A stretch of 57,056 nt of DNA. Source: an uncultured Pseudomonadota bacterium (GTDB taxonomy: Bacteria; Pseudomonadota; Alphaproteobacteria; RF32; CAG-239). Under the pieces are notes generated by a model. The model had not been told where the DNA came from. It made no database searches and was given only the letters and a program-made list of their open reading frames with translations. The stretch covers positions 1 to 57,056 of the forward strand of contig CADAAN010000001.1 of NCBI GenBank assembly GCA_902785935.1. Reading direction: 5' to 3'. Position numbers and translations under genes: made by a program. This document shows positions 5,777 to 56,269 of the stretch, in pieces (within the stretch, counting starts at the first letter, position 1; every line of letters starts with the position of its first letter).

Positions 5777-7113
5777 TTGCGTTTGAAGGAATTTTTCTAA
5801 TTTATCTGTTGTCGTCCATCTTTTTTATTTTGGCAGTCAGAGGCCTTGCCTCACCCGCTTCGGCCGAGCGAGGCAACCATCTTGGCATAACGGGTATGGC
5901 TGTTTGTGTATTGGTCACGCTTCTTGTTGTTCCGTCCAGAAATGATGTCGGTATTTTTTTGGCACTGATTGCGGCGGCAATTTCAGGCATCACAATTGCA
6001 AACAAAATCAAAATGACCGCTTTACCGCAGATGATTGCTTTGCTCAACGCCGCCGGCGCTTTATCTTCGCTTTTGGTGGGCGTGGTGCAAATTTTGCGTC
6101 ATCAGGCACATGCTTTTGATACATCCGTCGGTATGATTATCGGTGCCGTGGCTTTTTCAGGATCTTGTGTCGCTTTTTTTAAGCTCAGTGGCTTATATAC
6201 CTTTCAAAGGCTTAAATTTGCAAACCTCATCAATGCATTAATTTTAGGCGTCATTGCTTTTTATTGGACGCGTTTTTCAATCGACGGAACAATGCAAACG
6301 GCATATATGATGATTGCACTTTCGCTTGTGTTCGGCGCAACAATCACCTTGCCGGTCGGCGGAGCGGATATGCCGATTATGATATCCGTTTTGAACGCGG
6401 CATCGGGATTTGCGGCGGCGGGTATCGGTTTTTCGCTTTCAAACATTGTGTTGATTATCACGGGTGCGATTGTCGGTGCAAGCGGGACGATTTTAGCTTT
6501 TGTCATGACAAAGGCGATGAACAAAAACTTTTTTCAAATTTTATTTCAACACAAAAACGTTGAACAAAAACAAGCCTTAAATGAAAAGACGGCGCACACG
6601 GCAAGCGTTCAGGATGCGGCTTTTTTGATGCAAAATGCCTCTAAAGTAATTATTGTGCCGGGGTTTGGCATGGCCTCTGCCGGCGCTCAATATGCCTTGA
6701 AAAATATGACCGATGTTTTAGAAGACAAATATGGCGTTGAAGTTAAATTTGCCATTCACCCCGTCGCCGGCAGAATGCCCGGACATATGAACGTTTTACT
6801 CGCAGAAGCAAAGGTTGACTACGAAAAAGTTTATGGCCTTGAGGACATCAATCCCGATTTTGTTTCAGCCGATGTTGCTTATGTCATCGGGGCAAACGAT
6901 ATCACCAATCCGGCAGCCAAAACAGACACATCATCACCCTTGTACGGAATGCCCGTTTTAGATGTTGTTAAGGCCAAGACGGTTATCTTTGTCAAGCGCT
7001 CGCTTGCTGCCGGTTATTCAGGCGCAGACAATCCGTTGTTTTTTGCGGATAATACTTTGATGCTTTACGGCGATGCAAAAAAAATCACCGAAGAAATCAC
7101 CGCCGACTTGTAA
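5773..7113 (+). CDS. pntB: NAD(P) transhydrogenase beta subunit
   Basis: A 446-residue protein with an N-terminal bundle of hydrophobic helices and a C-terminal NADP(H)-binding domain. The NADP domain is recognised by VIIVPGFGMASAGAQYAL, HPVAGRMPGHMNVLLAEA and the region VIGANDITNPAAKTD. It completes the pntAA-pntAB-pntB operon, which supplies NADPH for biosynthesis. It ends 5 bp before the convergent LRR gene, with no obvious terminator between them. Confidence 0.93.
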   Translation: MIAFEGIFLIYLLSSIFFILAVRGLASPASAERGNHLGITGMAVCVLVTLLVVPSRNDVGIFLALIAAAISGITIANKIKMTALPQMIALLNAAGALSSLLVGVVQILRHQAHAFDTSVGMIIGAVAFSGSCVAFFKLSGLYTFQRLKFANLINALILGVIAFYWTRFSIDGTMQTAYMMIALSLVFGATITLPVGGADMPIMISVLNAASGFAAAGIGFSLSNIVLIITGAIVGASGTILAFVMTKAMNKNFFQILFQHKNVEQKQALNEKTAHTASVQDAAFLMQNASKVIIVPGFGMASAGAQYALKNMTDVLEDKYGVEVKFAIHPVAGRMPGHMNVLLAEAKVDYEKVYGLEDINPDFVSADVAYVIGANDITNPAAKTDTSSPLYGMPVLDVVKAKTVIFVKRSLAAGYSGADNPLFFADNTLMLYGDAKKITEEITADL

Positions 7114-7118
7114 ACATT

Positions 7119-7895
7119 TTACCGATACCTTATCGAGAAGGTATTTGTCTTGCCCGCCACGGCATTCGCCTCATCGATGGTGTAAATGCGCTTTTTGATG
7201 TAATTCGGCGTGCCGATATCACTGAGCCGAGCATAGTATTTGCCGCCTACAAGATATTGATTGTCAGATGTTTGTTGATATTCAATAACTTCTGCCGCGT
7301 CGCCGCGATAAGCGATGGCGGCTTCACAAGCATCCTTCATTTGAGGAGCGCAATAAAGTTTTTCAATCAATGTCGGAGTACTATTATTAGCTTTGAAAGC
7401 TGTCGGACTCAATGTAGTATTTGCGGGAATAACAAGTGTTGTGATACCTGTTGTTTCGAGCGCTTCTGTATCAATAGTAACATTATCCGGTATTGTTAAA
7501 TTTTCAAGAGAGGTACAATTTTCTAATCCGCCTGGGAGTATCTCTCTTAAAGATTGCGGTAATTCAATATTTTTCAAATTTTCAAATCTAAAAAATGCAT
7601 TATAACCAATGCTTGTAATGCCTTCCTCGATACTAATGTTTTGGATGTTATTTCTAACAGCATACCAAGGTTCGCTCGTCGTGTACCAGCCTCCCATCGG
7701 GCCCTGACCGGAAAGTGTCATTGTACCGACCGATTTGATTGAGCCGTCGGGCTGAACTTCATCTTCATAAGTCACGTGTGCGAGGCAATTTTCGCCGCAC
7801 TGAAAACAATCAGTGTCGTTAAGTGTTTCAAGTGTACAATCCGCTTTTGCATTGAAACTCAGAATTAATCCCAAAATCAAAACATATTTCTTCAT
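7119..7895 (-). CDS. Secreted LRR (BspA-like) protein 1 with conserved C-terminal tail
   Basis: A 258-residue protein with a signal peptide (MKKYVLILGLILSFNAKA, cleavage before DCTLE). A cysteine-rich N-terminus (CFQCGENC) is followed by short leucine-rich repeats of the LRR_5/BspA type (ITSIGYNAFFRFENLKNIEL, then LRE, LENLTIP, ITTLVIP units). A linker (EKLYCAPQMKDACEAAIAYRGD) leads to the tail KKRIYTIDEANAVAGK then NTFSIRYR. The tail recurs in LRR genes at 30327, 33742 and 41030 and in the remnant at 55825. BspA-like LRR proteins often mediate surface adhesion; no ligand can be predicted here. A class 1 leader RNA ends just upstream. Confidence 0.82.
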   Translation of the reverse strand: MKKYVLILGLILSFNAKADCTLETLNDTDCFQCGENCLAHVTYEDEVQPDGSIKSVGTMTLSGQGPMGGWYTTSEPWYAVRNNIQNISIEEGITSIGYNAFFRFENLKNIELPQSLREILPGGLENCTSLENLTIPDNVTIDTEALETTGITTLVIPANTTLSPTAFKANNSTPTLIEKLYCAPQMKDACEAAIAYRGDAAEVIEYQQTSDNQYLVGGKYYARLSDIGTPNYIKKRIYTIDEANAVAGKTNTFSIRYR

Positions 7896-7926: not shown

Positions 7927-8082
7927 AAAAAAATCACTTCAGAAAAAATCCAAAGTGGGAGCTATACGAACTGTGTAGATGCAGTTTCTCTTCTTCGTCA
8001 CAAAGTGCTTATTCCGAGAACTCCCTTTAAAAGGAGTCTTTATCTACAAAGTGTCGTATAACACCGCAACCATTTTGGTTAC
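7927..8082 (-). ncRNA. Class 1 structured leader RNA, copy a (upstream of LRR protein 1)
   Basis: Read on the minus strand, the RNA starts with the conserved hairpin AACCAAAATGGTT and GCGGTGTT. Two long-range helices follow: P1 (TATACGA 8060-8054 with TCGTATA 7969-7963) and P2 (TGTAGAT 8048-8042 with ATCTACA 7980-7974). An internal hairpin ACTCC/GGAGT lies at about 8035-8019. The RNA ends in an intrinsic terminator (CACTTT/GAAGTG stem, U-run 7933-7927) 31 bp before the ATG. P1 and P2 keep pairing in the three other copies despite different bases. The family is not one I recognise. It is either a cis-acting attenuator/riboswitch or a separate small RNA. Confidence 0.8.
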
Positions 8083-8088
8083 ATTCTT

Positions 8089-8117
8089 ATAATGGCATAC
8101 ATCACAATTCTTGTCAA
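8089..8117 (-). promoter_or_regulatory. Promoter of class 1 leader RNA copy a
   Basis: The minus strand carries TTGACA (8117-8112), a 17-bp spacer ending in TGC, and CATTAT (8094-8089). The conserved RNA 5' end GTAACC begins 6 bp after the -10 box. The same geometry occurs at all four class 1 copies. Confidence 0.75.
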
Positions 8118-19921: not shown

Positions 19922-20172
19922 AAAAAACCGCTTTTGATAAGCGGCCGGGGCATGCAAAAATCATATTCGCTAAAATGACTTCGATAGCCTTTAGAAAATA
20001 TCCTTGAACATCCGCTATCGATACCCCGACCAAGTTTTCGGGGATAATCGTGCTTAACTAAAAAAAGAAAAACACATCAAAAACAGTGTTATCCATCACT
20101 GTAGCGAATAGAGCCTTTGCAAGCTCCGTGCCCTTTAAAAGGCACTTAATAAAAAGATAAATCTCTTTATCT
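19922..20172 (-). ncRNA. Class 2 structured leader RNA, copy a (upstream of PLD-like nuclease)
   Basis: On the minus strand, 5' hairpins (AGATAAA/TTTATCT, GTGCC/GGCAC) are followed by three conserved helices: a long-range helix ATTCGCTA (20109-20102) with TAGCGAAT (19972-19965), helix TCGATAGC (20021-20014) with GCTATCGA (19988-19981), and a CCCCGA/TCGGGG hairpin after GATTAT. The RNA ends with a CCGCTT/AAGCGG terminator (19944-19928, U-run 19927-19922), 14 bp before the start codon. Promoter: TTGACA 20207-20202, 17-bp spacer, TTGAAT 20184-20179. The same helices with different bases occur at 34605 and 56043. I do not recognise the family. Confidence 0.78.
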
Positions 20173-30236: not shown

Positions 30237-30326
30237 GATTTTTTCTCCTAAAAAATGTTAAAATAAAGACACAAGAGAAAATAATCATGACAAATACCGC
30301 TTTCAATATCATAAAATCAAAAGTTT

Positions 30327-31172
30327 TCAGCGGTATCTTATCTTGACCGAATTAACCTTTCCCGCCACCTGATTTGCATCATCGATAGTGTAAATGCGCT
30401 TTTTGATATAATTTTGTGTACCGATTTTACCGAGACTGTCATAAAATTTGCCACCATAAAGATACTCGTTTCCAAGACGTCTGTACATTTTTAAGTCCAC
30501 ATCTTCAAGAGGTACATAGCCACCGTCAACCCCCGTAAAAGAGTCGGCGTCTTTTAAGTAATCAGCGCATTTTTTCTGATATTTTTCTGAGCAATATATT
30601 TCATTGATATGTGTTAATGCGCTATGAGCCATCCCTAAACCACCCTCATCAAACAAAGAGTCCGGAAGTATAAGACTTGTCACACCGGATGCTCCGAAAT
30701 TATAATGTCCGAGGTATTTAAGCGAATCCGGCAACTCGATATGCGTCAATAAAGGGTCACCATAAAAAACGGCTACATTTATCCTTTCAAGCTGTGAATT
30801 TTCTTCAAAATTAACTGATGTTAAGTTTCTCATTGACTGAAAAGCTCCATCGCCGATAGATAGAACCGAATTGCCTATTTTAGCAGACGTTAACTGCGCT
30901 TGATGAAAAGCAAGTGTTCCGATAGATGTAATACCCGATATTTCAACCGTAGAAATATCTGTTCCCCATGGTGAAGGATTGTCATAATAAGTATGTGTAT
31001 AATCAGCCATTTTTCCAGTACCCCAAATCTTGAGATTTCCCTCATCATCAAGGCTCCAGTTACAATCATCATAAGTTTGTGTATTTTCATTATATGCACC
31101 GCAATTACCCGATGTTTCGGCATTGACGTTAAAACTTAAAACTAACCCTAAAATCAAAATTATTTTTTTCAT
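30327..31172 (-). CDS. Secreted LRR (BspA-like) protein 2 with conserved C-terminal tail
   Basis: A 281-residue protein with a signal peptide (MKKIILILGLVLSFNVNA). LRR units occur at about residues 75-190 (ISGITSIGTLAFHQAQLTSA, NSVLSIGDGAFQSM, LTHIELPDSLKYLG, VTSLILPDSL). A linker containing CSEKYQKKCADYLKD and YLYGGKFYDSLGKIG precedes the tail KKRIYTIDDANQVAGK then NSVKIRYR. The YLYGGKFYDSLG segment matches YLVGGKYYARLS in LRR protein 1. A class 1 leader RNA ends about 95 bp upstream. Host-surface binding is a family-level guess. Confidence 0.82.
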   Translation of the reverse strand: MKKIILILGLVLSFNVNAETSGNCGAYNENTQTYDDCNWSLDDEGNLKIWGTGKMADYTHTYYDNPSPWGTDISTVEISGITSIGTLAFHQAQLTSAKIGNSVLSIGDGAFQSMRNLTSVNFEENSQLERINVAVFYGDPLLTHIELPDSLKYLGHYNFGASGVTSLILPDSLFDEGGLGMAHSALTHINEIYCSEKYQKKCADYLKDADSFTGVDGGYVPLEDVDLKMYRRLGNEYLYGGKFYDSLGKIGTQNYIKKRIYTIDDANQVAGKVNSVKIRYR

Positions 31173-31266: not shown

Positions 31267-31423
31267 AAAAAAAATCACTTCAGAAAATTCCAAAGTGGGA
31301 GCTAGATGAACTGTCAAAACGCAGTTTCTTTTATTCGTCACAAATGTGCTTATCTCAAGAACTCCCTTTTAAAGGAGTTTATGTTTTGAAAGTGTCATCT
31401 AACACCGCAACCATTTTGGTTAC
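31267..31423 (-). ncRNA. Class 1 structured leader RNA, copy b (upstream of LRR protein 2)
   Basis: Minus strand, starting GTAACCAAAATGGTT. P1 pairs TAGATGA (31401-31395) with TCATCTA (31309-31303); P2 pairs TCAAAAC (31389-31383) with GTTTTGA (31320-31314). Both differ from copy a yet stay paired. The internal hairpin is ACTCCT/GGGAGT. The terminator ends in the U-run 31274-31267. Unlike the other copies, about 95 bp separate the terminator from the gene start. Promoter: TTGACT 31458-31453, 17-bp spacer, AAAAAT 31435-31430. Confidence 0.8.
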
Positions 31424-33728: not shown

Positions 33729-33741
33729 GATATTCAGCTTT

Positions 33742-34578
33742 TCATCTATACCTAATCGAAACAGTATTCGTCTTGCCTGCAACAACATTCGCTTCATCGA
33801 TGGTATAAATACGTTTTTTGTTGTAATCACCTGATAAAATATCACTTGCGTTGTTATACCAATGATTTTTATAAAAAATTTTATTACCATCTTTTTTATA
33901 GGTTATTATATTGATTTCTTTTCCTAAATCTTTTTTCCATTGTGTGGCTGCTGCACATTGGTCGGCAACAGCTTCACTGCAATAGAGATTTTTAATTAAA
34001 GCGCTACTATGATCGTCATCTTCTCCACCAAAAGCGTTAGGTGAAACAATTGTTACGGTTGACGGAACGGTAAAATTTTCGATTTGTGTATTACAAAAAG
34101 CGCGATAAGGAAGTTCTGTAATACCTTCAGGAATATTATTAATATTTTCAAGCTGAGAGTACGCAAATGCATAAACTCCCAAGGACGTTAAAGTGCTCGG
34201 TAAATCAATGTTTGTAATATTCGTTGCTTCAAAAGATGAATTACCGATTGATTCCAGGCCTTCCGGCAATTCAACGGAAGTTACTGAGTGCATCCTGAAA
34301 AAAGCACCATCACCGATTGATGAAATACCATCACTGACAATAATTTTTGATACACCGCTATCATACCATGGAGCATCATTGTAACAGTCAAAGTCGTCGC
34401 AATGTATATAAGATTGTATGCTTGCCGACTGGGAAAAATCAATCGGTGAAATGGTCAAAACACCATCTTCAATGATATATTTGCAATTTGTACCGCAAGT
34501 GTAAAGTTCATCAGCTTTGAGGTTAATGCACAATAAAAAAGCAGATGCAAAAGAAATTAACAATTTTGAATAATTCAT
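33742..34578 (-). CDS. Secreted LRR (BspA-like) protein 3 with conserved C-terminal tail
   Basis: A 278-residue protein with a signal peptide (MNYSKLLISFASAFLLCINL, cleaved near KADEL). A CGTNCKYIIEDG motif is followed by LRR units (ISSIGDGAFFRMHSVTSVEL, LESIGNSSFEATNITNIDL, LTSLGVYAFAYSQLENI). A linker with CSEAVADQCAAATQWKKDLG leads to KKRIYTIDEANVVAGK then NTVSIRYR. In contrast to the other intact LRR genes, it is preceded by a class 2, not class 1, leader RNA. An AAGGATAAATGAG ribosome site precedes the ATG. Confidence 0.82.
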   Translation of the reverse strand: MNYSKLLISFASAFLLCINLKADELYTCGTNCKYIIEDGVLTISPIDFSQSASIQSYIHCDDFDCYNDAPWYDSGVSKIIVSDGISSIGDGAFFRMHSVTSVELPEGLESIGNSSFEATNITNIDLPSTLTSLGVYAFAYSQLENINNIPEGITELPYRAFCNTQIENFTVPSTVTIVSPNAFGGEDDDHSSALIKNLYCSEAVADQCAAATQWKKDLGKEINIITYKKDGNKIFYKNHWYNNASDILSGDYNKKRIYTIDEANVVAGKTNTVSIRYR

Positions 34579-34604
34579 CTCATTTATCCTTATTTAGTTG
34601 AAAC

Positions 34605-34858
34605 AAAAAGTCGCACCTTTGATGGAGCGACGGGGTGTAAAACAACCATATAGTATGAAATGATCCCAATAATCTTTAGGAGAACCTTGTACATTCATTA
34701 TCGGCACCCCGACTTTTTTCGGGGATAATGGTGTTTTTAAAAACAAAAAAAACACTATAAAATTACAGTGTTACCATCACTGCATACTATAATAAGCTGT
34801 TTTAGAGCCCCGCACCCTATCAGGGTACTGAACAGAAAAGCCCAAACTTCTCTATCTG
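34605..34858 (-). ncRNA. Class 2 structured leader RNA, copy b (upstream of LRR protein 3)
   Basis: Minus strand. The long-range helix pairs TATAGTATG (34791-34783) with CATACTATA (34657-34649). The second helix pairs CCGATAAT (34704-34697) with ATTATTGG (34673-34666; one G-U). The CCCCGA/TCGGGG hairpin is conserved. 5' hairpins include ACCCT-GAT-AGGGT. The terminator has stem GTCGC/GCGAC (34631-34610) with U-run 34609-34605, 26 bp before the ATG. Promoter: TTGACA 34893-34888, 17-bp spacer, AATCAT 34870-34865. Bases before the terminator (CCCCG) are complementary to CGGGG at 34812-34808. Confidence 0.78.
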
Positions 34859-34986
34859 ATTTTCATGATTACATACCTCAAATCAAATGTCAAGTAAAAA
34901 AATCCCCGCGAAGTATATGATATTTTTCTTATAATATAGACGCCATAAAATCAAATAACGCATTGATTTTTCATATAAAAACGCAG

Positions 34987-35006
34987 AATGTTTCACGTGA
35001 AACATT
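34987..35006. other. parS centromere site (ParB-binding)
   Basis: The 20-bp perfect palindrome AATGTTTCACGTGAAACATT contains TGTTTCACGTGAAACA, the established bacterial parS consensus bound by ParB. It lies between the class 2 promoter and the end of ftsA. It is the only such site found in the window. parS sites cluster near chromosomal origins, which fits rpmH-rnpA 22 kb away. parA and parB themselves are not in the window. Confidence 0.92.
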
Positions 35007-35029
35007 TAAAAAATCAGTATTAATATTGC

Positions 35030-36286
35030 TTAAAAATTTTGCTTAAACCAGGCTAAAATCTTTTTGACCCCGCCGATGTCGGTCAATGTTGTTGTATTGT
35101 TTGTATACGGGCGACGCTCTCTGAAATTGATGGCAAACAGAAGCATTCCGAGCGCGGTGGAATACTTCGGATCATAAAGATATGTCGGGATATTCGGAAT
35201 ATTGCGCGGAATACCCAAACGCACCTGTTTATTAAGTACTAAATTCGCAACTTCGCGAATACCGTTCAATGAGCTGCAACCGCCGGTTAAAACCACACGA
35301 TGATTTGACACATCTTTTAAGCCTTGTTCTGCAAGCTTTTTGCCAACCATCTCAAAAATTTCTTCAACACGCGGCGTGATAATGTTAATCAAATCAGATT
35401 TTGGCACCTGACGAATGGAATTATCATCTTCTTCACCGACAGGATAAACATCTATCGTTTCGCGCTCGTCCTGACTGATTAAAAAGGCACATCCATGTCT
35501 GATTTTTAAATCTTCGGCATAAGCAAAGGATGTTGTCAACCCCCAGGCGATATCGTTTGTAATATTGTTTCCGCCGACGGGCAATGTTGAAAAATAAGCG
35601 GGATAGCCGTTTTTAAATGTCGTGATACTCGTTGTCCCGCCGCCAATATCCACAACCGTTGCACCCAGCTCTTTTTCATCATCTACAAGACACGAAAGTG
35701 CAGATGCATAGCCCGAAAATGCTTTGGAAGCCACCTCAAGGTGCGCACTTTCAATCACATTTTCAAGATTTTTATATAACAACTCAGGATATGTCCCAAA
35801 CAACATATCAAGTCCCAAACTTTCGGCATAAAGCCCTTTTGGGTCTTTAATCGGTTCATTTTTATCGCCTAGAAAATCAAGCGGAATACAATGTATCGCT
35901 TCACCTTCAAAATTTTTGATTTTTGCGACACTCTGCGACATCAATTTTTCAACATCAATTTCCGAAATCGGGCGGTTTTTATGCAATTGAATACGGTTGT
36001 GTGTAATAAAACTTTGTGTTTTGTCACCCGAAACATTGACAATCAGGCTGTTAATGCGCTCTTTGGCCTGTTGTTCTGCATCTTCAACTGCATTACAAAT
36101 GGAAAGCGTCGCTTGATTGATGTCGGTAATCACACCGTTTTTAATCCCTTTTGAAGCATTGTATCCATAGCCGACAATCTCGATTTTTTTATCCCGCGGC
36201 GTGATGTGCGCAATCAGGCAACAGACCTTAGATGAACCGATATCTAAGGTTGCCAAAGTGGATGCTCTTGCAAAAGAATGATTCAC
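35030..36286 (-). CDS. ftsA: Cell division protein FtsA
   Basis: A 418-residue actin-like ATPase that tethers FtsZ to the membrane and recruits later division proteins. The phosphate-1 motif is LATLDIGSSKVCCLIA, phosphate-2 is ATVVDIGGGTTSITTF, and the adenosine segment is VVLTGGCSSLNGI. A C-terminal amphipathic tail (KKILAWFKQNF) fits the membrane-targeting helix. It is last in the cluster mraY-ftsW-murB-ftsQ-ftsA; ftsZ does not follow. Confidence 0.95.
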   Translation of the reverse strand: MNHSFARASTLATLDIGSSKVCCLIAHITPRDKKIEIVGYGYNASKGIKNGVITDINQATLSICNAVEDAEQQAKERINSLIVNVSGDKTQSFITHNRIQLHKNRPISEIDVEKLMSQSVAKIKNFEGEAIHCIPLDFLGDKNEPIKDPKGLYAESLGLDMLFGTYPELLYKNLENVIESAHLEVASKAFSGYASALSCLVDDEKELGATVVDIGGGTTSITTFKNGYPAYFSTLPVGGNNITNDIAWGLTTSFAYAEDLKIRHGCAFLISQDERETIDVYPVGEEDDNSIRQVPKSDLINIITPRVEEIFEMVGKKLAEQGLKDVSNHRVVLTGGCSSLNGIREVANLVLNKQVRLGIPRNIPNIPTYLYDPKYSTALGMLLFAINFRERRPYTNNTTTLTDIGGVKKILAWFKQNF

Positions 36287-40998: not shown

Positions 40999-41031
40999 GA
41001 ACCACGCCCTTTATGCGTGGTTCTTTTTTTT
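40999..41031 (+). terminator. Intrinsic terminator of the 40401 gene
   Basis: Perfect 9-bp stem GAACCACGC (40999-41007) with GCGTGGTTC (41015-41023), followed by T8. It abuts the stop of the convergent LRR gene. Confidence 0.88.
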
Positions 41032-42043
41032 ATCGATACCGAATCGAGAAAGTATTGGTTTTACCTGCGACCTGATTGGCCTCATCGATGGTGTAAATGC
41101 GGAATTTGACATTGTTGCCTAAAGCAAAATCTTCCATCGAATTATAAATCTTTGAACCGACTTTGAAAGGCGCACCGTTTGAGGCCAATATATCTTCACA
41201 GTTTTGTTTGTCCGTGCATGCCGCACCACTTGCAAACAAATCAAGCGTTGCCCAATATTTTCCGCCGACTTCAAAGGGCTTGCCCTGCGAGGCGGCATCC
41301 AAAATATCTTGGCAGTTTTGCGCATTATCACAAGCGGCGCCTTTGGTCATCAAATCTGCCGTTGCATAAAGTTTATCCCCGATTTGATAAAATCCGTCGT
41401 CGCTTTTTTGATACGCTATCACAGAAACATTATCTCCGCGATAAGCAACCACTGCCGCACAAGCATCTTTCTGTTCAGAAAGACAATAAATTTTTTCAAT
41501 CGGCGTACTGCCATAATACGGACTGTCAAAAATATCCTCTCCTGAAAGTAATTTTGCATTCTTGGGGATAACAATGCTTGTTAAGCCGGTTCCCTGCAAT
41601 GATGCACGATGGATATTAACACCATCCGGAAGTGATAGCGATTTTAATTGAGGACAAGATTGAAAAGCCCCCGGTTCTAAATTAAGCAATGTTGACGGGA
41701 GTTCAACTTCAGATAAGTTCATAAAATGATAAAAACCATTAAACCCGACAGAGGTTATTCCTTCATCAACCACGACTTTTGTAACTTCTGAAGATTTGAC
41801 ATACCAAGGTGTGGGTGTGTCGCCATCATAATTAAAATTTCCCATATTACCTTCACCCGAAACGGTTAGAATTTTTTCGGTCGTATTATTATTTTTTATC
41901 GATTCGCTATATCTCATAACACAACTTGCACCACATTCAAAACAAGTCTTTGCTTGCATTTCCGAATCACTGCAAGGTACATATGTTGATGCATATATTT
42001 TAAAACTGAGCATAAAACTCACAATAAAGGCCCTTTGTTTCAT
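41030..42043 (-). CDS. Secreted LRR (BspA-like) protein 4 with a duplicated C-terminal module and conserved tail
   Basis: A 337-residue protein with a signal peptide (MKQRAFIVSFMLSFKIYAS). CFECGASC resembles CFQCGENC of LRR protein 1. LRR units follow (ITSVGFNGFYHFMNLSEVEL, LTSIVIP). The linker CLSEQKDACAAVVAYRGDN matches protein 1. Two copies of a module of about 36 residues occur at about 225-298 (LYATADLMTKGAACDNAQNC; YWATLDLFASGAACTDKQNC). The tail FRIYTIDEANQVAGK then NTFSIRYR closes the protein. A class 1 leader RNA ends 26 bp upstream. Confidence 0.82.
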   Translation of the reverse strand: MKQRAFIVSFMLSFKIYASTYVPCSDSEMQAKTCFECGASCVMRYSESIKNNNTTEKILTVSGEGNMGNFNYDGDTPTPWYVKSSEVTKVVVDEGITSVGFNGFYHFMNLSEVELPSTLLNLEPGAFQSCPQLKSLSLPDGVNIHRASLQGTGLTSIVIPKNAKLLSGEDIFDSPYYGSTPIEKIYCLSEQKDACAAVVAYRGDNVSVIAYQKSDDGFYQIGDKLYATADLMTKGAACDNAQNCQDILDAASQGKPFEVGGKYWATLDLFASGAACTDKQNCEDILASNGAPFKVGSKIYNSMEDFALGNNVKFRIYTIDEANQVAGKTNTFSIRYR

Positions 42044-42068: not shown

Positions 42069-42225
42069 AAAAAAATCACTTCAGAAAAATTCCAAAGTGG
42101 AGGAGCTACTAAACTGTCAACACACAGTTTCTCTCATTCGTGCAAAAGCCTTATATCGAGAACTCCTACCAAAGAGGAGTTATGTGTTGAATGTGTTTAG
42201 TAAACACCGCAACCATTTTGGTTAC
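42069..42225 (-). ncRNA. Class 1 structured leader RNA, copy c (upstream of LRR protein 4)
   Basis: Minus strand, starting GTAACCAAAATGGTT. P1 pairs TACTAAA (42202-42196) with TTTAGTA (42113-42107). P2 pairs TCAACACA (42190-42183) with TGTGTTGA (42124-42117). The internal hairpin is ACTCCT/AGGAGT, and AGGAGTT (42167-42161) can pair with AGCTCCT (42107-42101) ahead of the terminator. The terminator stem CACTTT/GAAGTG ends in U-run 42075-42069. Promoter: TTGACA 42261-42256, 17-bp spacer, CATGAT 42238-42233. Confidence 0.8.
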
Positions 42226-47944: not shown

Positions 47945-48106
47945 GTAACCAAAATGGTTGCGGTGTTTAGATGACATCTTCTTGAAGCATAGCTCCTTTA
48001 AAGAGGAGTTGTTGAGATAAGGGTATTTTGCCGCGAATAAAACAAACTGTGCTTCAACAGTTCATCTAGCTCCTCCGTTTTAGGTTATTTAAGACGGATT
48101 TTTTTT
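47945..48106 (+). ncRNA. Class 1 structured leader RNA, copy d (upstream of prepilin-like gene)
   Basis: Plus-strand copy starting GTAACCAAAATGGTTGCGG. P1 pairs TAGATGA (47968-47974) with TCATCTA (48062-48068); P2 pairs TTGAAGCA (47982-47989) with TGCTTCAA (48050-48057). The internal hairpin is CTCCT/AGGAG. The terminator has a different stem from the other copies (TCCGTTTTA 48074-48082 with TAAGACGGA 48090-48098) but the same position, then T8 (48099-48106). The gene starts 20 bp later. This copy shows the leader is not confined to LRR genes. Confidence 0.82.
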
Positions 48107-48126: not shown

Positions 48127-48741
48127 ATGAAAAATAATGAAACAGGCAGAAGTATGGTCGAGATGCTGGGCGTGTTGGCCATTGTCGGGGTATTATCGGC
48201 GGGCGCGTTAAAAGGTTATTCATCCGCGATGTTTAAATACAAAATGAATCAAACGATTGACATCACAACAAGGATGTTTCAACGCATTGAGGAACTGTCT
48301 CAAAAAGATTTGGGGAGCGAAGCGATTATCCAAGCAAGCAATGCCGTTGAATGGGGGCTTTTGGAAAAATGCGATTTAGAAGATGGATACAAATGCCGCC
48401 TGCCGATAGGAAGTGTTAGCGTAGATTTTTATGATATACCTGCTGATTATTGTTTTGATGGCAGTCCTGCAGGACTCGGAGGCCAGTTAGAATTTGAATT
48501 CACGGATGCAAAAAGTTGCACAGCCTTTTTATCGGCGCATTGGGAGCAAATGTTGCCTCAGGATTGGTGGAATCCGAATGGGTTTTTATTGGTTGAAGGA
48601 GAAAAAGAAGAAACCCATCTTTATTATCCGGGAGAAGATATAACGGAGATGCCGACAATGTCTGATTTTACAAATGCCTGCCAAAAAATATGTATAAACG
48701 GAAAGTGCTGGATTTTCTTACGATATCGTAACTGGTGTTAA
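48127..48741 (+). CDS. Prepilin-like protein (type IV pilin N-terminal methylation motif)
   Basis: A 204-residue protein. The start MKNNETGRSMVEMLGVLAIV has a prepilin peptidase site (cleavage after Gly7, Glu at +5) and a hydrophobic helix to about residue 30. The rest is a cysteine-containing globular domain ending in a cysteine pair (CQKICINGKC) and LRYRNWC. It is probably a pseudopilin or minor pilin placed at the surface by type II/IV machinery; no assembly genes are nearby. It is preceded by a class 1 leader RNA and followed by its own terminator. Confidence 0.82.
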   Translation: MKNNETGRSMVEMLGVLAIVGVLSAGALKGYSSAMFKYKMNQTIDITTRMFQRIEELSQKDLGSEAIIQASNAVEWGLLEKCDLEDGYKCRLPIGSVSVDFYDIPADYCFDGSPAGLGGQLEFEFTDAKSCTAFLSAHWEQMLPQDWWNPNGFLLVEGEKEETHLYYPGEDITEMPTMSDFTNACQKICINGKCWIFLRYRNWC

Positions 48742-55819: not shown

Positions 55820-55824
55820 TTTTC

Positions 55825-56015
55825 TCACCTGTACCTTATCTTCACGAAATTAACCTTCCCCGCAACGGCATTGGCCTCATCGATGGTATAGATGCGTTTG
55901 CCCTCATAGCCGAGAATATCACCATTTGCATTTTTCACGGTTATACTGCCGTCAGCGTTTTTGATATAATAGCTGTTGTTGCCATTAATACAAATATAAA
56001 TTGATTGTTTTTCAT
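55825..56015 (-). pseudogene. Collapsed LRR gene: start plus conserved C-terminal tail only
   Basis: Below the class 2 leader there is a ribosome site (AAGGAG) and an ATG at 56015 opening a signal-like peptide (MKNNQFIFVLMATTAIISK) that ends after 24 codons. In another frame, from 55983 to 55825, the typical LRR-protein end is intact: YYIKNADGSITVKN, GYEGKRIYTIDEANAVAGK, then NFVKIRYR. The signal, LRR and linker regions between were lost, with a frame change. The tail itself has no disabling mutation, so the loss may be recent, or the tail may be kept. Confidence 0.7.
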
Positions 56016-56042: not shown

Positions 56043-56269
56043 AAAAACCGCCTTTTAAAAAGCGGTCAGGGTGTTAGAAAATCATACAGAGTGAAATGAC
56101 TCCGATAGCCTTTAGAATAAATTTCCTGAACATTCGCCATCGGCACCCCGATCAAAACTTCGGGGATAAACGTTGTTTAAAACAAAAAACAACACCATAA
56201 AACAACAGTGTTATCCTTCACTGCACCCTGTAAGAGCTTTCTAAAGCCCTGCACTTCTTCTGAAATGCA
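56043..56269 (-). ncRNA. Class 2 structured leader RNA, copy c (upstream of collapsed LRR gene)
   Basis: Minus strand. A 5' hairpin (TGCATTTC/GAAGTGCA) is followed by the long-range helix TACAGGGTG (56232-56224) with CACTCTGTA (56093-56085; one G-U), the helix CCGATGGC (56143-56136) with GCTATCGG (56109-56102) and the CCCCGA/TCGGGG hairpin. The terminator is ACCGC/GCGGT (56066-56047) with U-run 56047-56043. Promoter: TTGACA 56304-56299, 17-bp spacer, TTATAA 56281-56276. CAGGG (56251-56247) is complementary to CCCTG just before the terminator (56071-56067). Confidence 0.78.

Follow-up and report, generated by a model that had tools for sequence, protein, structure and literature searches.

The strand GGGAGTT, at 8025-8019 on the minus strand of the window (the whole stretch of 57,056 nucleotides analysed here), is probably the common strand of a bistable leader RNA that acts in cis and would operate as an attenuator, judging from sequence and covariation. 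This strand, which comprises GGAG and its flanks, takes part in two helices. P7 is the long-range GGAG/CTCC pair that the first-pass annotation had pointed out, and P4 is a local hairpin in which the partner is CTCCT. P4 and P7 are both conserved and are mutually exclusive, because a single base is followed by two partner strands.

Architecture and copies of the leader RNA

Reading from 5' to 3', a sigma-70-like promoter is followed by P1, by P2a, which carries the 5' strand of P2 in its loop, and by the 5' strand of P3. P4 and P5/P6 come next, then P3a with the 3' strand of P3 in its loop, the 3' strand of P2 and CTCC. The terminator follows CTCC, and the ribosome site and the ORF lie beyond it. 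In copy a, which lies on the minus strand, the promoter is TTGACA-17-CATTAT with an extended -10 (8089-8117), and similar promoters were recognized by eye upstream of other copies. These promoters, most of them judged by eye, stop a few bases 5' of P1. The structured RNA itself spans 7956-8082 as a model match. It begins with the P1 hairpin GTAACC/GGTTGC (8066-8082), which has compensatory changes in copy L030, and the P2a hairpin GTGT/ACAC (8051-8064), which has the P2 5' strand TATACGA (8060-8054) as its loop and takes the forms GGAGT/ACTCC and GAGGT/ACCTC in relatives. The P3 5' strand TGTAGAT follows (8042-8048; P3 has at least 7 bp in all 38 parsed copies). The P4 5' arm ACTCC (8033-8037) then pairs locally with the GGAGT of the shared strand (8019-8025), which is both the P4 3' arm and the P7 5' strand. 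The P5/P6 arm (7987-8019) combines covarying helices with an invariant internal loop of ATAAG (8012-8008) and CGAA (7997-7994). The P3a hairpin CTG/CAG (7971-7984; CTA/TAG in copy L005) presents the P3 3' strand ATCTACA (7980-7974) in its loop. The P2 3' strand TCGTATA (7963-7969) is assigned by P2 pairing covariation, and the P7 3' strand AGCTCCC (7957-7963), like its partner, by sequence and covariation. The intrinsic terminator (7927-7957) has its stem at 7957-7935, followed by a T run, and precedes a gene for a 258-amino-acid BspA-type LRR_5 protein (7119-7895).

The window contains three other copies. Copy b (31296-31423, minus strand; GGAG 31365-31362, CTCC 31301-31298) and copy c (42100-42225, minus strand; GGAG 42166-42163, CTCC 42105-42102) precede LRR_5 genes at 31172-30327 and 42043-41030, respectively, and copy d (47945-48075, plus strand; GGAG 48005-48008, CTCC 48070-48073) precedes a pilin-like gene at 48127-48741. 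A weak match to the leader model was also seen at 1845-1973, within an ORF. A covariance model built from 35 own-genome copies (R1) detects 64 copies in the 1.46-Mb genome, and a plain DNA search recovers fewer, approximately 40 places. Within the order, R1 has matches in 107 of the 153 genomes, every one of them a member of a single family; one congener reaches 86 copies, the maximum. An exact-pattern scan of a named genome collection led to rumen Alphaproteobacteria MAGs (RGIG5118 from roe deer rumen and RUG11221). The R1 search first suggested that the RNA is confined to its own family, a notion overturned by a second model built from the family copies (R2), which reached other alphaproteobacterial families, where some loci precede weakly Rha-like genes. 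Tandem or closely spaced pairs of leaders were observed at L095/L106, L170, G000:C32:94-459, G000:C47:165-733 and L272.

P2 and P3 are helices of approximately 8 bp whose sequence varies between copies yet pairs inside each copy. The mean longest stem is 7.9 (P2) and 7.8 (P3) with a copy's own strands, compared with 4.2 and 3.9 with swapped strands. Across all 39 pairs of the own-genome alignment, 96.1% of positions are paired versus 78.8% after shuffling and 34-46% after sliding, and double changes number 246 versus 67 in the shuffled alignment. From these private sequences we infer that the P2/P3 codes would prevent cross-folding between copies. Two own-genome copies carry internal deletions, with loss of the P4 5' arm in L020 and of the P3 3' part in L024, and are possibly decaying copies or natural mutants. 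Two other roles were considered for P1. A DNA operator is unlikely, given that L030 and L035 have different hairpins with compensating changes, and an antiterminator role against the terminator 5' arm was dropped, given that L003, L030 and L035 alter P1 without a matching change in the terminator.

Two partners for one strand

The pairing was followed through two positions, x1, immediately 5' of GGAG, and y1, immediately 3' of CTCC. The first-pass annotation had read GGGAGTT against AGCTCCC in copies a and b, and AGGAGTT against AGCTCCT in copies c and d. In copy a, both stretches are present on the minus strand at 8025-8019 and 7963-7957; copy b is identical to it at the matching places, and both altered letters are found in copies c and d. 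The proposal that the local hairpin tolerates either G or A through wobble also agrees with the sequences, because a constant T in the P4 5' arm stands opposite x1 in all four window copies as an A-T or G-T pair. A wider alignment bears out the suspected compensatory changes. The own genome and its relatives supply 136 distinct copies, of which 135 have x1 and y1 paired, as GC (57), AT (42), TA (15), CG (13) or GT (8), and L138 provides the sole mismatch. The corresponding 99.3% is well above the values from 2000 shuffles (mean 52.7%, maximum 63.2%). In the own genome alone, the pair is AU in 21 copies, GC in 12 and GU in two, with no break among 35. The next pair outward is paired in 84.6% of copies versus 73.5% in shuffles. 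The second partner follows the same base, as the P4 5'-arm base opposite x1 pairs in 119 of 120 copies (shuffle mean 67.4%, maximum 76.7%).

Does this pattern reflect one ancestral replacement? The pair types are mixed inside single genera, with CG, GC and TA in genus g7, TA and CG in g8, TA and GC in g11, and further mixtures in g29 and g1. The x1-y1 variation is therefore not one founder event. On a weakly resolved tree, it requires at least 24-30 changes; well-supported branches provide six independent comparisons with none contrary, which are too few for a test. Deep relatives replace GGAG with GGATG, GGAAG or GGGGT and retain P7, as in TGACTGGAAG/CTTCCAGTCA, GGGCGGATGT/ACATCCGCCC and TGCCGGGGGT/ACCCCCGGCA, and the P7 register is shifted in one lineage (TGGAGGATG/CATCCTCCG, L150). 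In 15 such deep or register-shifted relatives, P7 is 6-10 bp long and contains 8.2 Watson-Crick pairs with its own strand versus 5.3 with swapped strands. These observations count against anti-SD mimicry, offered earlier as another cause of the pair: the base beside GGAG takes all four letters along with its partner, and the deep relatives lose GGAG itself while keeping the helix.

Proposed switch and rival explanations

An intrinsic terminator, with a hairpin and a T run, follows the leader in 141 of 145 copies. Its stem begins right after CTCC in 101 of the 145 and within one base of that point in 123. In most copies, the final one or two bases of P7 double as the first bases of the terminator, which pair beside the U tract. 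Two exclusive, covarying pairings thus adjoin an intrinsic terminator, and this part of the earlier switch reading stands; the part that makes P7 an antiterminator is less secure, as its overlap with the terminator stem is just 1-2 nucleotides. A plausible effect of the overlap is to keep the terminator from closing, but P7 could instead stack on the terminator without blocking it, only 1-2 bases being common. Isolated estimates, which exclude pseudoknot costs, are approximately -12.9 kcal/mol for the P7 duplex and -8.5 kcal/mol for the P4 hairpin.

How might such a leader act on the downstream gene? We propose that P4 would form first during transcription, which would allow the terminator to close in the off state. 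Completion of the P2/P3 fold, perhaps with help from a protein or ligand at the P5/P6 loop, would then move the common strand from P4 to P7. P7 would take the first one or two bases of the terminator stem, so that the pairs nearest the U tract could not close. With those pairs open, transcription would read into the gene. We infer this direction, with P7 as the on state, and take it that the copies would be transcribed as drawn and that some trigger would drive the P4/P7 exchange. P7 might also join two separate RNA molecules. The bistable model predicts base changes that should flip the leader, and 64 copies in one genome, each with its own pairing code, amount to an unusually rich collection of natural mutants of a bistable RNA.

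In fluoride- and preQ1-type riboswitches, a pseudoknot strand lies right before an intrinsic terminator and shares bases with it in mutually exclusive helices. The leaders resemble such terminator-linked riboswitches and attenuators in their exclusive helices and in a switching strand that adjoins the terminator. However, they differ from the fluoride and preQ1 types in that no Rfam family of such a kind matches. No covariance model reached its gathering score anywhere in the window, T-box and c-di-GMP families included, and relaxed thresholds applied to the leaders tested yielded nothing relevant beyond sub-threshold matches to sRNA-Xcc1. Type III toxin-antitoxin systems of the ToxIN kind, in which a tandem-repeat RNA precedes a gene for a ToxN-type endoribonuclease, were considered and rejected, given that the downstream ORFs are mostly LRR_5 or XRE-like and the leaders mostly single, with a few tandem pairs.

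Attenuation has to be weighed against readings that use the same helices differently. CTCC might act as an anti-Shine-Dalgarno sequence for the gene's own ribosome site, in which case P7 would sequester CTCC and free the site. We regard this translational switch as unlikely. It would account for the base after the Shine-Dalgarno GGAG, which is T or C in 57 of 64 XRE-linked copies versus 9 of 29 other ORFs at the same loci, for the restriction of GGAGC sites to leaders with GCTCC (19 cases, with 0 of 20 among ACTCC leaders) and for eight-base matches such as TTAACTCC/GGAGTTAA (L158). However, the lineages are confounded and the mean extension is 2.7 with the own leader versus 2.1 with swapped ones; the window genus mostly has GGAGA, just four bases of which are complementary; and the x1-y1 covariation would be left unexplained. 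A static structure appears quite unlikely. Under that reading, the mature RNA would contain P7 or P4 alone, and the second pairing would be either an intermediate of folding or a coincidence arising from the repeated CTCC/GGAG letters. P7 alone is modelled, as a closing helix, in the Rfam family RF02221, and nested minimum-energy folds include P4 in window copies a, b and d. Nevertheless, both partners of one base covary through all four base types, and covariation of P4 as well as P7 likewise disfavours the static pseudoknot suggested in the first-pass annotation.

The leader might, instead, be mainly a source of a short terminated trans-acting sRNA, with the downstream gene read occasionally. 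Nearly every copy has promoter-like sequence and a terminator, and sRNA-Xcc1 was published as an 88-nucleotide Xanthomonas sRNA mapped by RACE (PMC2996969). We consider this reading very unlikely, as the leaders retain a ribosome site with an ORF that mostly lies 47-71 bases past the leader match, ORFs at canonical sRNA-Xcc1 loci mostly start 15-53 bases downstream (some farther away), and the variable helices pair inside each copy.

Kinship with sRNA-Xcc1 and the genes downstream

The best reading of the sequence comparisons is that the leaders belong to a superfamily that includes sRNA-Xcc1 (RF02221). Window copy a has no match to RF02221 at E<=5, and the link therefore runs via intermediates. 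Sub-threshold matches in the right place and register were obtained for L277, L281, L286, L107, L114, L166 and L133, at 26.9-37.8 bits with the best at 35-38, all below the curated gathering cut-off of 53 bits. L277 scores 37.8 bits (E 2.4e-5 on 301 bases), and L286 is a viral contig with the same gene as L277. A bridging copy also exists in the own genome. L317 (C8:20627-20714) scores 32.9 bits. Inspection by eye shows P2 and P3 in it, along with a P7 of GCGGATG/CATCCGC, and it lies upstream of an LRR reading frame, the start region of which is apparently broken by a stop codon. In the RF02221 alignments of L277, L107, L281 and L114, P7, P5/P6 and P3a fall on Rfam helices, and aligning the window copies to these four shows that they share the helices. 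The 9-bp outer, closing helix of sRNA-Xcc1 corresponds to P7, its inner stem with the AAUA/AAUAA loop to P5/P6 and its last hairpin to P3a. The window copies differ from sRNA-Xcc1 in the local P4 that competes with P7 and in the terminator that comes after P7.

RF02221 covers the 3' half only and is filed as an sRNA gene. A sample of 398 genomes spanning the phylum contained it in 58, with 39 of these above the cut-off. A region approximately 95 nucleotides upstream contains P2/P3 partners, with a median of 15 Watson-Crick pairs in nested P2 and P3 at 29 above-cut-off loci. Controls give a median of 8 when swapped and 8 when shuffled, and 23 of the 29 loci beat 95% of swaps, a control that is position-limited. 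Based on these pairings, we newly propose a putative 5' half of sRNA-Xcc1 carrying P2/P3. A literature search, covering largely papers outside subscription and not the 2011 sRNA-Xcc1 paper, retrieved no description of this 5' half or of the antirepressor context. A terminator-like hairpin lies between the halves at 26 of the 29 loci and after the RNA at one. It is thus inside the RNA in canonical sRNA-Xcc1, whereas the terminator follows the RNA in the window leaders, and the same mechanism therefore cannot hold unchanged across the superfamily. An alternative partner for the P7 5' strand is only weakly above shuffles at canonical loci (5.4 versus 4.8 pairs), and we claim no P4 there because this signal barely exceeds the shuffles.

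Among the scanned ORFs at canonical loci, Bro-N is matched by five (one of them under the cut-off), Rha by three, SymE by two, and KilA-N and P22_AR_N by one each; another five have no Pfam match. sRNA-Xcc1 has been placed upstream of symE in integron cassettes (PMC12444791), and seven copies are listed for Xylella (PMC12189769). Related RNAs precede phage regulator genes across Proteobacteria, and the sampled sRNA-Xcc1 loci often lie before antirepressor-type or symE genes. A phage database search with a gammaproteobacterial copy returned one good match, Pasteurella phage Pmp8.

In the own genome, 37 of 54 ORFs downstream of leaders match LRR_5 (BspA-type repeats). Pilin-like proteins containing GRSMVEMLGVLAIIGVLSAGALKGYS, or a sequence close to it, account for several more, and a handful differ from both groups, one being XRE-like and one epimerase-like. 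The ORF after most copies in other genera encodes a small, highly divergent XRE/Cro-C1-like protein of approximately 73-113 amino acids. Among 68 XRE-like ORFs, HTH_3 was matched by 30, HTH_25 by 30 and HTH_31 by 29 (overlapping sets at E up to 0.01, with individual scores often under Pfam cut-offs). ORF starts follow a scoring rule and are uncurated, and a clear ORF is missing after a few copies. The best reading is that the leader, which sister genera have before XRE-like regulators, was amplified before LRR and pilin-like genes in the window's genus. Uncultured rumen Alphaproteobacteria would possess an RNA-controlled surface-protein regulon if the switch operates in the proposed way.

A broader interpretation is offered tentatively, as possible rather than probable. 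sRNA-Xcc1 and the leaders may together make up a single superfamily of RNA locks, built from two halves and set on phage antirepressor-type genes. In these locks, the variable P2/P3 would be a private code, either for folding with the own half or for a short terminated 5' half that silences the matching leader in trans, a form of RNA-based immunity, and the rumen lineage would have domesticated the lock into a 64-member surface-protein regulon. The Rfam sRNA gene RF02221 would then be the visible half of a larger leader before phage regulators and symE. C4 antisense RNA of P1/P7-like phages is a known RNA control before phage antirepressor-type genes, acting through two complementary stretches. 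C4 (RF01695) differs from the leaders in structure, and C4 models match elsewhere in L284. In this gammaproteobacterial prophage-like region, a leader relative lies near C4 and its a1/b1 target, both above the Rfam cut-off.

Two further repeats were observed in the window. The LRR genes have a common 3' end (KRIYTIDEA..) as a repeat of up to 145 nucleotides (7112-7256, 30320-30464, 33735-33879, 41023-41167 and 55822-55899), suggesting that the proteins share a C-terminal segment. Another repeated intergenic sequence, leader-like but apparently of an unrelated type, lies at 34870-34580 on the minus strand, before the LRR_5 gene at 33742-34578. An Rfam scan of 34500-35100 gave no meaningful match. 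This second type recurs as direct repeats at 19922-20101 and 56043-56223 and contains a CAGTGATG..TAACACTG hairpin followed by a T run.
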